Assembly (NCBI GenBank): GCA_021737975.1
Contig: JAIPCZ010000017.1
Span: 1-49,900 of the forward strand
Source of the DNA: Polaromonas sp.
Lineage (GTDB): Bacteria; Pseudomonadota; Gammaproteobacteria; Burkholderiales; Burkholderiaceae_C
Length of the DNA: 49,900 nt
Direction: 5' to 3'
This document shows positions 41,562 to 49,900 of this stretch, one piece after another. A program made the translations under genes and the position numbers. How positions within the stretch are numbered: the first letter of the stretch is position 1; each line of letters starts with the position of its first letter. The notes under the pieces were generated by a model, which was not told where the DNA came from, did not search any database, and worked only from the letters and a program-made list of their open reading frames with translations.

Positions 41562-42611
41562 ATGTCTATCGCGCTCCTCGCACAGTCTCTGGGTTTATCG
41601 ATATCCACCGTGTCGCGCGCACTCAATGGGTACACGGATGTCAGCGCCAAGACCCGGGCACGGGTTGAAACAGCGGCAAAGGCCATGGGCTATCAGCCGC
41701 ATCCAATGGCGCATCGCCTGGCCACTGGTCGCACCGGAGTCATTGCGCTGGTGTCTTCGGTGCGCAGCGGAAATTACCTGGATGCCACCTTTTCGGCGCT
41801 GCTCTCCGGCGCAGCGGATGGCTTGCGTGCGCATGGCTACTTTGCAATTTCAGTGGTGTTGCCGGTGGGCGAAGACGAGCTGACCGAGTTGTCCCGCTTT
41901 CTCGATGGCCGCCTGGTCGACGGGGTCCTGCTGGCGCGCACCCGCACCCAGGACCCGCGGGTGAGCTTGCTGCAACAGAGGGGCATTCCCTTTGTCACCC
42001 ATGGCCGCACGGTGGCCAACGAGGCCCATTCCTGGGTCGACGCCGACAACGAGCACGCCATTTTCATGGCAACCCAGCGTTTGATTGACCTGGGGCACCG
42101 CAGCATCGCTTTCATCAATGGTCAGCCGAACCTGACTTTTGCGACTTTGCGCGAGCAGGGTTTTCGCCGTGCATGCGCGCAAGCCGGTTTGGAGGCGGCC
42201 CGATGCCCGGTTCGTCATGGTGAGGTCACTGCTGTCAGCGGGGAGCTCATTGCAAGCGAATTGCTGGCCGCAAGGGAAATCGAGGCAAAAGCCGGGGCGC
42301 ATTCAGCCAACAAATTGTCAGCCATTGTGTGTGCCACGGATGCGGTTGCGCTGGGGGCCATGCGGGCCATTCGCGCCGCCGGTCTGGTGGTGGGCCGAGA
42401 CATTTCGGTCATTGGCTACGGCAATACCGAAGCCGGCCTTTACGCCGAGCCACCTCTCACCACCCTTGATTACGCCACGGTGGACAACGGCCGACACCTC
42501 GCCGAGCTGCTCATGCGTCAACTCGGTGGCGAGCCTGCCCCCAGCCTGACCCGGCTGGAGCCGGTGCATCTGATACCCCGTCAATCCGACGGACCTTGCC
42601 TCCATGCCTAA
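41562..42611 (+). CDS. LacI-family transcriptional regulator
   Basis: This 349-residue repressor has an N-terminal helix-turn-helix (ALLAQSLGLSISTVSRALNG) and hinge helix region (GYQPHPMAHRLATG). A periplasmic-binding-like effector domain follows, including LVDGVLLARTRTQDPRV, WVDADNEHAIFMATQRLIDLGHR, DAVALGAMRAIRAAGL and DISVIGYGNTEAG. It heads the sugar uptake and hydrolysis genes and probably controls them. The ATG at 41562 has no recognisable ribosome-binding site; the bases before it are part of an inverted repeat. The effector is unknown; a sugar or sugar phosphate from the locus is likely. Confidence 0.93.
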   Translation: MSIALLAQSLGLSISTVSRALNGYTDVSAKTRARVETAAKAMGYQPHPMAHRLATGRTGVIALVSSVRSGNYLDATFSALLSGAADGLRAHGYFAISVVLPVGEDELTELSRFLDGRLVDGVLLARTRTQDPRVSLLQQRGIPFVTHGRTVANEAHSWVDADNEHAIFMATQRLIDLGHRSIAFINGQPNLTFATLREQGFRRACAQAGLEAARCPVRHGEVTAVSGELIASELLAAREIEAKAGAHSANKLSAIVCATDAVALGAMRAIRAAGLVVGRDISVIGYGNTEAGLYAEPPLTTLDYATVDNGRHLAELLMRQLGGEPAPSLTRLEPVHLIPRQSDGPCLHA

Positions 42612-42632
42612 CTTTTTAAAAGGAGACCTTTC

Positions 42633-43904
42633 ATGAAAATCAAACCACTGAATGCCCTGACTGTCCTGCTGATGGCCGGTGCCAGCTACGCCCAGACCAA
42701 TGTGGTCTCCACCCAGATGCGCCCGGTTGAAGAAGCCGAAAAAGTGCGCACCATCATCCTCAAGGGCGCCCCCGACGCGGTCAATTTCATCCCTGAAGAC
42801 GGCAACACCTATTTCACCCGCATGAAGGCCGAACTGGGGGCGGCGCAAGGCAAGGTGCACGCCACCATTGCGCTCGATGGCGAGCTCGCGCCGGTCAACC
42901 AGATTGGTGGCCTGAGCGACCTGGACGATCTGGCGAAAAGGCTCTCGACGACCCGCGAGTTTTCATCCTCAGCCATGAGCCTGGGCAAAATGGGCGGCGC
43001 CAACCAGCGCTTCATTCCCTTGATGACCAACACCTTCCAGATGGTGGCCAACAAGAAAGCGCTGCCGTATCTGCCCGCCGGCGCCAATATCAACGCACTC
43101 ACCTATGTGCAGTTGCGCGACTGGGCCAAGGCAATGAAAGACGCCACTGGCGAAAGCAAGCTGGGCTTTCCGGCGGGCCCCAAAGGCTTGATGCACCGCT
43201 ATTTCCAAGCTTCCTTTTACCCCAGCCACACCGGCGGCATCGTGCGCACCTTCAAGAATGCCGATGCCGAAAAGGCCTGGACCGACTTCCGCGACCTGTG
43301 GGCCTATGTGAACCCGCGCTCGACCAGCTATGGCTTTATGGAAGAACCTTTGAAGACGGGGGAAGTTTGGGTCGCGTTTGACCACACCGCCCGAGTGCTG
43401 CCGGCCTTGAACGACAAGCCGGCCGACTTTGTGGTGTTTCCGGCACCCAGCGGCATCAAGGGGCGCGGTTACATGCCGGTGATGGTGGGTGTGGCGATTC
43501 CTAAAAACGCAGCAGACAAGGCAGCCGCCGAGCGAGTGATCGACCATCTGACCAAGCCGGCAACTCAAGCCATGATCCTGAAGGAAATCGGTTTCTTCCC
43601 GGCCGTCAAGTCAGACTTGAGCCATTTGTCGCCTGGCGTGCAGATGGCAAGCCAGGGCATGACGGCGGTGTTTTCTGCCAAGGATGCGCTTGCGAGCCTC
43701 TTGCCGGTGCAGTTGGGCGCCAAGAACCGCGAATTCAACAAGATTTTTATCGACACCTTCACTCGCATCGTGCTGCGTAAGGAAGACGTTAAGACCGTGC
43801 TGGGCGAGCAAGGCAAACTGATGGATGCCGTGGTCAAGGAAGCTGGCGCACCCTGCTGGGCACCCGATGCCAGCAGCGGCACGGCCGTGTGCTCGGTTCA
43901 ATAG
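42633..43904 (+). CDS. Carbohydrate ABC transporter substrate-binding protein
   Basis: This 423-residue periplasmic protein of the family-1 extracellular solute-binding group has a signal peptide likely cleaved after SYA (residue 20). The mature part shows LMTNTFQMVANKKALPYLP, YVQLRDWAKAMKDATG and GRGYMPVMVGVAIPKNAADK, typical of MalE/UgpB-like proteins. It captures the sugar for the permease pair that follows. A strong AAAGGAG site lies eight bases before the ATG. Ligand is unknown; the downstream hydrolase suggests a mannosyl or glucosyl conjugate. Confidence 0.9.
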   Translation: MKIKPLNALTVLLMAGASYAQTNVVSTQMRPVEEAEKVRTIILKGAPDAVNFIPEDGNTYFTRMKAELGAAQGKVHATIALDGELAPVNQIGGLSDLDDLAKRLSTTREFSSSAMSLGKMGGANQRFIPLMTNTFQMVANKKALPYLPAGANINALTYVQLRDWAKAMKDATGESKLGFPAGPKGLMHRYFQASFYPSHTGGIVRTFKNADAEKAWTDFRDLWAYVNPRSTSYGFMEEPLKTGEVWVAFDHTARVLPALNDKPADFVVFPAPSGIKGRGYMPVMVGVAIPKNAADKAAAERVIDHLTKPATQAMILKEIGFFPAVKSDLSHLSPGVQMASQGMTAVFSAKDALASLLPVQLGAKNREFNKIFIDTFTRIVLRKEDVKTVLGEQGKLMDAVVKEAGAPCWAPDASSGTAVCSVQ

Positions 43905-43936
43905 GCACCCACTGAAGATCCCGAGCAGACCCTGCC

Positions 43937-44788
43937 ATGAACGCGCAGCAACGCACCCCTTATCTGTTGATCGCCCCCAGTGTGGTCTTCTTGCTGGTGC
44001 TGTTTATTTGGCCCCTGGCAGAGACCGCGCTGATGGCCTTCAGAACACCAGACGGCAGTTGGACCGGCCAGTACATCAGCAAGATGCTCGGGGATCTGAA
44101 CTTTGGCATCGCCCTGAAGAACACCCTGATTCTGGTGGCGGTCGTGGTGCCGCTGCAAATGGTGGTGGCGCTGGGCATGGCCATGATGCTGCAAAACATC
44201 GACCGGGGTCGCATGGCCTTTCTTTACGTCTGGACCATTCCCCTGGGGGTGAGTGACCTGGCCGCCGGACTCGCCTGGCTGGCGATTTTCAGTGACCGGG
44301 GTTACTTCAACTCGGTGCTCTCCAGCCTGGGCTTCATCAGCGGACCCACGTCGTGGCTGAGTTACCAGAACCCCATGGCCCTGTTTGTCTGCGTGGTGAT
44401 TGCCGAAATCTGGCGCGCCACCGCCATCGTGCTGGTGATCCTGGTGGCGGGTGTCCAACTAATACCCAAGGAGTACAACGAAGCCGCCGAGGTGTTTGGC
44501 GCCAGCGCTTGGCAGCGCTTTGTAAAAGTGACTTTGCCCCTGCTCAAGCCCAGCCTGCAAAGTGCCTTGATCTTGCGCACCGTGCTGGCATTTGAGGTGT
44601 TCGCAGTGGTCTATGCGCTGGCAGGGCGCGACTTCCCGGTGCTGGTGGGCGAGGCCTACAACTGGCAGGGTGCCTACCAGAATACCCATGTGGCTTCGAG
44701 TTATGCGCTGTTCATTCTGGTGGTGTCCATGGCCTCCACAGTGTTTTACCTCAAGGTTCTCAAGGTCAAGCGGGAGACCCTGTCATGA
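43937..44788 (+). CDS. Sugar ABC transporter permease (MalF/UgpA type)
   Basis: This 283-residue inner-membrane permease has six predicted helices. The cytoplasmic EAA loop that contacts the ATPase reads EYNEAAEVFGASAWQRFVKV, followed by TLPLLKPSLQSALI. It forms a heterodimer with the next gene product, whose start overlaps its stop by four bases. It belongs to the CUT1 group of carbohydrate importers. Confidence 0.94.
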   Translation: MNAQQRTPYLLIAPSVVFLLVLFIWPLAETALMAFRTPDGSWTGQYISKMLGDLNFGIALKNTLILVAVVVPLQMVVALGMAMMLQNIDRGRMAFLYVWTIPLGVSDLAAGLAWLAIFSDRGYFNSVLSSLGFISGPTSWLSYQNPMALFVCVVIAEIWRATAIVLVILVAGVQLIPKEYNEAAEVFGASAWQRFVKVTLPLLKPSLQSALILRTVLAFEVFAVVYALAGRDFPVLVGEAYNWQGAYQNTHVASSYALFILVVSMASTVFYLKVLKVKRETLS

Positions 44789-49482: not shown

Positions 49483-49510
49483 GCAGCTTGGATTGACTTT
49501 AAGCAACCAA

Positions 49511-49547
49511 GGGTAAATACTGACTTGCGGATTGTTGAAAATTAATT
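49511..49547. repeat. Shared motif pair upstream of the second binding-protein gene
   Basis: GGGTAAATACTGACTT (49511-49526) and TTGAAAATTAATT (49535-49547) match the pair upstream of the LacI gene with one base difference. The following bases (to about 49562) are a run of AATTAATTAA repeats, much more A+T-rich than the surrounding sequence. This is probably the promoter/operator of the next transcription unit. Confidence 0.7.
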
Positions 49548-49641
49548 AACAATTAATTAATTCTGGCAACACGGTGTCTGCCCGAATCAACCCGCGCCTC
49601 GGAGCCACCATCGGCCATCCAGGCAGACTTAAGGAGATGAC

Positions 49642-49900
49642 ATGATGAAACTTTCCCAATTGGCTTCGGCCGTGGCTATTGTTGTGGCAGCAAACGCGGC
49701 CATGGCCGGTGAAGTCGAGGTGCTCCACTGGTGGACCTCCGGTGGCGAGGCCAAATCGGTTGGCGAGCTGAAGAAAATCATGCAGAGCAAGGGCCACACC
49801 TGGAAAGACTTTGCCGTGGCAGGCGGCGGTGGCGACAACGCCATGACCGTCCTCAAAAGTCGCGTGGTCGCTGGCAATCCGCCGGCTGCAGCACAAATCA
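49642..49900 (+). CDS. Glucose/mannose-type ABC substrate-binding protein, partial
   Basis: The first 86 codons of a periplasmic binding protein, cut by the window end. A signal peptide (MMKLSQLASAVAIVVAANAA) ends near AMA. The mature part begins GEVEVLHWWTSGGEAKSVGE and contains AVAGGGGDNAMTVLKSRVVA and GNPPAAAQI. These patterns are those of GtsA-like glucose/mannose-binding proteins of pseudomonads and related bacteria. An AAGGAG site lies at 49631-49636; an ATG one codon later is equally possible. A second sugar importer probably follows beyond the window. Confidence 0.9.
   Translation, partial: MMKLSQLASAVAIVVAANAAMAGEVEVLHWWTSGGEAKSVGELKKIMQSKGHTWKDFAVAGGGGDNAMTVLKSRVVAGNPPAAAQI

Follow-up and report, generated by a model that had tools for sequence, protein, structure and literature searches.

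The window analysed here is a stretch of 49,900 nucleotides from a Polaromonas sp. genome bin (contig JAIPCZ010000017.1), and this text concerns a putative operon near its 3′ end for the use of a glycerate-linked sugar. Eight genes run in one direction on the + strand from 41562 to 49482, with intergenic gaps of −4 to 104 bp. Pfam and NCBIfam scans gave the order LacI-family regulator, substrate-binding protein (SBP), permease, permease, ATPase, hydrolase, mannose-6-phosphate isomerase (PMI) and ROK-family kinase. These scans confirmed the named genes, their order and their strand as given in a preliminary description, which had proposed import and breakdown of mannosylglycerate or glucosylglycerate. 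The features are as follows.

41495..41540 (41495-41508 and 41527-41540), no strand: two operator-like palindromes CAAAACCGCTTTTG, 32 bp apart, upstream of the LacI gene
41562..42611, +: LacI-family repressor, probably autoregulated (PF00356, PF13377 Peripla_BP_3)
42633..43904, +: periplasmic SBP of a CUT1 importer (PF13416/PF01547)
43937..44788, +: importer permease 1 (PF00528, BPD_transp_1)
44785..45588, +: importer permease 2 (PF00528, BPD_transp_1)
45601..46617, +: importer ATPase, UgpC/MalK type (PF00005, ABC_tran, 8e-36)
46686..47984, +: predicted mannosylglycerate hydrolase (MgH type), 432 aa (PF22422, 3e-88; PDB 2z07, 1.3e-108)
48089..48457, +: stand-alone type II PMI domain, a cupin (PF01050, 4.4e-39)
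48490..49482, +: ROK-family sugar kinase, proposed mannokinase (PF00480, 2.2e-34)

The PMI gene most likely starts at ATG 48089 and not at an upstream TTG, and the ROK gene most likely at ATG 48490. The second palindrome overlaps an alternative TTG start of the LacI gene, which makes ATG 41562 the likelier start. The window comes from a genome bin of 2.6 Mb with a completeness of 69.5%, and absences in it are therefore weak evidence.

Model PF22422 (MGH1-like_GH) spans residues 31-419 of the hydrolase over the full profile (1-356 of 356; 3e-88, 297 bits against a cut-off of 27), and the closest solved structure is the MgH of Thermus thermophilus (2z07, 366.9 bits, 1.3e-108, residues 13-426), followed by the glucosylglycerate hydrolase (GgH) of Mycobacterium hassiacum and its variants at 183-191 bits (5.5e-54). 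The enzyme had been called a GH63 hydrolase. MgH and GgH relatives are placed in CAZy GH63 in the description of the M. hassiacum enzyme (PMC6608630), and PF22422 is the fitting model, whereas PF03200 (GH63) itself matches the whole protein weakly (24.1 bits against 22.4, with no single stretch passing) and found nothing at E ≤ 0.001 in a profile search of the window genome. No signal peptide was seen by eye.

For M. hassiacum GgH, the catalytic residues Asp182 and Glu419, the essential Asp43 and the ligand contacts have been named, and alanine variants of these three residues are reported as inactive (PMC6608630). Of its 18 catalytic or ligand-contacting positions 16 are identical in the window hydrolase, where Asp43, Asp182 and Glu419 correspond to D38, D177 and E401, and the aglycone-contact residues Y31, W35, Y91, R209 and Y357 are kept. 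Comparison of these residues covered 80 loci and the window, with the L005 protein incomplete and missing in seven of the 18 columns. The sugar contact Gln434 is Phe416 in the window and Phe in all 81 proteins, and a structure-search alignment puts Phe at the same place in T. thermophilus MgH. The glucosylglycerate hydrolase model NF047898 scores the protein at 310.8 bits, and its equivalog cut-off is 550. The best match, the Phe at the Gln434 position and this shortfall together indicate that the window enzyme is of the MgH type (EC 3.2.1.170), with hydrolysis of mannosylglycerate predicted by homology.

These 80 loci are the top-ranking ones among at least 583 confirmed relatives and not a census. 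Presence counts in them were made with tblastn because a simple rule on overlaps had removed some frames. Thirty-three of the 80 loci show the order SBP-permease-permease-ATPase-MgH on a single strand; LacI comes first on the same strand in 26 of them and is divergent in six. Represented among the 80 are Alphaproteobacteria, Gammaproteobacteria, Meiothermus, Verrucomicrobiota and others, and the importer-MgH order recurs in Alphaproteobacteria, Meiothermus and other groups. Hence the gene set is no betaproteobacterial peculiarity. Chance co-location of the genes was considered and rejected on this recurring order and on an operator-like pair that is unique in the genome. Near the host, MgH is rare and patchy: a search of 298 relatives, the window genome among them, gave it in six, and of 399 genomes drawn from the host's order only the host's own had it. 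On the tree the hydrolase of G128 groups with mostly alphaproteobacterial ones, which suggests that the gene entered the family more than once.

The genes that handle the products point to the sugar. PF01050 (MannoseP_isomer) matches the PMI over profile positions 10-116 of 116 (133.7 bits, cut-off 23.6, 4.4e-39); it is the only such match in the window genome, and a sequence search of solved structures gave no match for it at E ≤ 0.001. The stand-alone domain is a predicted isomerase. A search for relatives of the hydrolase gave 4624 at E ≤ 0.001, and among the best 120 listed four proteins (P0012, P0014, P0052 and P0055) carry the PMI fused to the hydrolase, at the C-terminus in the three shown in the alignment. 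All four fusions fall in one clade of 10 tree rows with the window, L003-L006, L115 and named Burkholderiales. Among the 80 loci, L004, L005 and L042 (an alphaproteobacterial bin) have a separate PMI gene next to the operon, and so does L115; in all but L005 the gene sits at the opposite end, at a distance of about 5 kb from the hydrolase.

The ROK kinase matches PF00480 over profile positions 2-291 of 294 (2.2e-34), and its nearest solved relatives are a glucokinase, which is the best match, and N-acetylmannosamine kinases. Proteins 63-80% identical to it follow the hydrolase or the PMI in L004, L005, L006 and L115. The zinc motif of ROK proteins is CxCGxxGCxE, and the window protein reads CGCGNVGDVE, with Asp for the third Cys. 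Mannose is its predicted substrate.

Other lineages seem to solve the same mannose chemistry differently. An AGE-family protein lies near MgH in eight of the 80 loci and in L114, and the copies of L009 and L114 have D-mannose isomerase as their best NCBIfam model (223 and 190 bits, below the cut-off of 600). A Marinomonas mannose isomerase has been described, with PDB 5x32 as its probable structure. Five of the eight AGE loci have a PfkB kinase no more than 91 bp away from MgH; that of L009 has fructokinase as its best NCBIfam model, below its cut-off.

The second product, glycerate, is also served in relatives. In 14 of the 80 loci a DUF4147-MOFRL glycerate 2-kinase gene is found no more than 10 kb from MgH, and in L077, L075 and L059 the distance is only 9, 29 and 42 bp. 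Against these 14 loci, about 0.6 would be expected from a rough gene density (9 genes in ~21 Mb of the six MgH-bearing genomes); the loci are not independent, and the tree requires at least 8 changes. Mannose and glycerate thus appear, from gene neighbourhoods, as the product pair jointly served by MgH neighbours. Most telling is the same-family genome G127 (locus L114), which is 100% complete: porin, SBP, two permeases, ATPase, MgH, AGE isomerase and glycerate 2-kinase are consecutive, with LacI divergent.

A related arrangement was seen in five gammaproteobacterial loci (L009, L010, L013, L015 and L017), in all of which MgH stands with a TonB receptor, a sodium-solute symporter, a ROK-type regulator, a glycerate 2-kinase and AGE isomerase relatives. 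A PfkB kinase is present in three of the five. The arrangement looks like a transporter-swapped version of the same route.

The transport genes have the composition of a CUT1 importer, that is, an SBP of the SBP_bac_1/8 type, two BPD_transp_1 permeases and one UgpC/MalK-type ATPase, whose best NCBIfam model is UgpC (NF008653, 389.8 bits, below the cut-off of 432). A sequence search of solved structures gave nothing for the SBP. Its AlphaFold model (pLDDT 90.6, built on an alignment of 22 relatives) matches sugar-binding and glycerophosphocholine-binding proteins with similar Z, so that the fold does not discriminate the ligand. Arg63, Arg189, Arg254 and Arg278 are invariant in all 22 aligned relatives, and our guess is that one of these arginines could hold the carboxylate of the solute. 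Mannosylglycerate is the predicted substrate of the importer.

Regulation appears to be local. The regulator has a helix-turn-helix and a periplasmic-binding-like domain, and the palindromes upstream of its gene have a central CG. CAAAACCGCTTTTG stands at 41495 and 41527, and the pattern CAAAANCGNTTTTG matches nowhere else in the 2.6 Mb of the window genome, in which a reversed-pattern control gave 0 matches. LacI relatives 60-77% identical head the operon in L003, L004, L006 and L115, and paired sites 32 or 33 bp apart precede LacI in L003, L004 and L006. G002, of the same genus as the window, has just two sites; they are spaced 32 bp from each other, at the edge of a contig and next to a LacI N-terminus. 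One site each was found beside the locus in L114, L115 and L116 and none at L117, and G152 has two further sites elsewhere. Paired sites mean more than single sites; a single site in genomes such as G009 and G128 means little because the reversed control gave three and one matches there. A scan near LacI in the 80 loci covered 32 LacI-like frames, of which 8 had an exact site, 9 more a site with at most two mismatches, and 15 none. The pair is probably a self-controlled switch of this operon, with operator binding and an inducer as its predicted elements.

Two further observations concern these sites. A related palindrome, CCAAAACGTTTTGG, precedes LacI in L066, L020, L049 and L067, which suggests that the operator may drift with the regulator. 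In a second arrangement (L030, L032, L044, L045 and L079), LacI is followed by two other, longer permeases, MgH and then the ATPase gene, with a different type of SBP that occurs in 12 of the 80 loci; an exact CAAAANCGNTTTTG site lies near the start in L030, L044, L045 and L079 and not in L032.

Taken together, the locus is very probably a LacI-controlled scavenging operon for alpha-mannosylglycerate made by other organisms, as far as can be read from its genes. According to this model, the SBP and the CUT1 importer would bring intact mannosylglycerate into the cytoplasm, where the MGH1-type hydrolase would release mannose and D-glycerate from it; by homology this would be an inverting enzyme in which Asp177 is the acid and Glu401 the base. 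The ROK kinase would convert mannose to mannose-6-phosphate and the cupin PMI would convert this to fructose-6-phosphate, while D-glycerate would become 2-phosphoglycerate through a glycerate 2-kinase encoded elsewhere. When inducer is lacking, LacI bound to the two palindromes 32 bp apart would shut its own operon. Growth on mannosylglycerate would be expected, and glucosylglycerate may be a side substrate.

The sequence of import, hydrolysis, phosphorylation and isomerization fits every gene, and is supported by the conserved active site, the MgH-PMI fusions, the neighbour genes of relatives and the operator-like pair. The route had been described as complete; the glycerate branch, however, lies outside the locus, with two glycerate 2-kinase-family genes elsewhere in the window genome. 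The choice between mannosylglycerate and glucosylglycerate, left as an either/or, is narrowed by the product-handling genes: the PMI fusions, the mannose-isomerase-type neighbours and the glycerate 2-kinases favour mannosylglycerate.

Several points weigh against this interpretation. The window has no glycerate kinase. PMI is present in only three of the 80 loci, and the window-type ROK kinase likewise in three; the close relative L003, which has a full importer, shows neither PMI nor ROK on its 15.9 kb, 4.6 kb of them past the hydrolase. His78 of M. hassiacum GgH is Gln81 in the window hydrolase, and Gln stands there in only 4 of the 81 proteins. Hydrolase, ATPase and ROK protein all stay below NCBIfam equivalog cut-offs. 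Finally, the MgHs of T. thermophilus and Selaginella are described as splitting mannosylglycerate and glucosylglycerate with similar efficiency (PMC6608630).

This last property bears on the first rival, an improbable one in our judgement, in which glucosylglycerate is the physiological substrate, the ROK protein a glucokinase and the PMI a bystander. Prochlorococcus NATL2A has glucosylglycerate as a major solute (PMC11631117), the enzyme class can take it, the only strong NCBIfam match of the hydrolase is the glucosylglycerate hydrolase model, and the best solved match of the ROK protein is a glucokinase. However, that model is matched far below its cut-off, in sequence the hydrolase resembles T. 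thermophilus MgH (367 bits) far more than GgH (183-191 bits), and Phe replaces Gln434 throughout the 81 proteins. Moreover, PMI fusions and mannose-isomerase-type neighbours have no evident use for glucose.

It is more doubtful still that the operon serves to recover a compatible solute made by the cell itself once osmotic stress has passed. The homologous M. hassiacum enzyme is thought to mobilize accumulated solute (PMC6608630), and recycling by the window operon would parallel this mycobacterial proposal, but an ABC importer lies in the same operon. In addition, mannosyl-3-phosphoglycerate synthase (MpgS, PF09488) was searched for in the six genomes of the family that carry MgH, the window genome among them, and none was found, a result that speaks for scavenging and against turnover; no search was made for glucosyl-3-phosphoglycerate synthase. 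Of 14 control genomes, Thermus composti gave a match. Three of the six genomes searched are less than 75% complete, which weakens this negative. The least likely rival, with hardly any weight in our estimate, is another small alpha-glycoside such as mannosylglyceramide, whose aglycone is not glycerate. The predicted importer specificity and the non-discriminating SBP model leave room for it, and conserved aglycone contacts are no proof of glycerate. Against it, those five contacts are all kept, the characterized relative is described as rejecting glucosylglycerol and glucosylglycolate (PMC6608630), and glycerate 2-kinase is linked to MgH in relatives.

Scavenging of mannosylglycerate can be set beside several known systems. 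Escherichia coli takes up mannosylglycerate by MngA, a phosphotransferase-system importer, and splits the 6-phosphate with MngB, a GH38 mannosidase. As in the window, an external solute serves as nutrient and yields sugar phosphate and glycerate; in contrast, the window combines ABC import and hydrolysis of the free solute, by an enzyme unrelated to MngB, with a subsequent kinase and isomerase. Digeneaside is the same compound as mannosylglycerate. Genes for its degradation have been predicted in marine flavobacteria such as Zobellia and Maribacter (PMC8072126), heterotrophs of a different phylum that are likened to the window by description and not by enzymes. A mannosylglycerate degradation pathway encoded by an ammonia-oxidizing archaeon is mentioned as well (PMC5398378), and this likeness too is by description and not by genes.

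T. thermophilus MgH (TTHA0978; PDB 2z07 and 4wva) is, like the window enzyme, a single-domain MGH1-like protein with the same catalytic and ligand residues and Phe at the Gln434 position, and in Meiothermus (L018, L024) LacI and a CUT1 importer precede MgH, ordered as in the window. However, Thermus makes mannosylglycerate (PMC11009771), while MpgS was not found in the MgH-bearing family genomes of the window, and PMI and ROK kinase are added to the operon in the window. M. hassiacum GgH is homologous with the same catalytic residues, and differs by Gln434 where the window has Phe416 and by the NCBIfam GgH cut-off that the window protein stays below. It is described as almost ten-fold more efficient on glucosylglycerate, with a proposed role in recovery from nitrogen starvation (PMC6608630).

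We think it likely that several phyla share an unrecognised nutritional route for mannosylglycerate, consisting of MgH with a dedicated importer, exchangeable mannose modules (ROK and PMI, or mannose isomerase and PfkB fructokinase) and glycerate 2-kinase. Some Burkholderiales would use a bifunctional hydrolase-isomerase, and the window would carry a compact version of the route, switched by two operators of its own. The kind of enzyme and the transporter class are already known; we did not find the complete route and gene set described, nor any such operon in betaproteobacteria, in searches of open-licence PMC papers.

Some algae use mannosylglycerate as a protectant. In that role the solute is known mainly from (hyper)thermophiles (PMC11009771). 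If a Burkholderiales lineage keeps a dedicated operon to import and use it, the solute would be a real carbon currency in the habitat of that lineage. The MgH-PMI fusions and the operon with a glycerate kinase offer a direct way to assign substrates to the many MGH1-like hydrolases, which public sources list under names such as hypothetical protein, neutral trehalase and glycogen debranching enzyme. Moreover, the SBP and the repressor could serve as mannosylglycerate sensors. The public labels of MgH relatives such as P0077, P0095 and P0113 (neutral trehalase, glycogen debranching enzyme or trehalase) are probably wrong.

The contig ends at 49900, 418 bases beyond the last operon gene and inside an apparent further gene, and the 3′ neighbourhood is therefore incomplete. 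That gene is the following.

49642..49900, +: apparent start of a second sugar ABC transporter SBP gene, probably a separate unit (86 open codons)

The fragment gave no Pfam match. An AT-rich block, AATTAATTAACAATTAATTAATT, precedes this apparent second importer (window 49540-49900) and is kept in L005, a Rhodoferax bin, where a complete SBP_bac_1 gene stands in the same place, followed by permease-like and ATPase genes (L005 3015-7582). L005 also carries a small EutQ-like cupin (PF05899, 2439-2933) with an N-terminal hydrophobic stretch, placed after the ROK kinase and ahead of the second importer; the window does not have this cupin. Past the second importer of L005, on the opposite strand, two genes resemble by eye a two-component pair.

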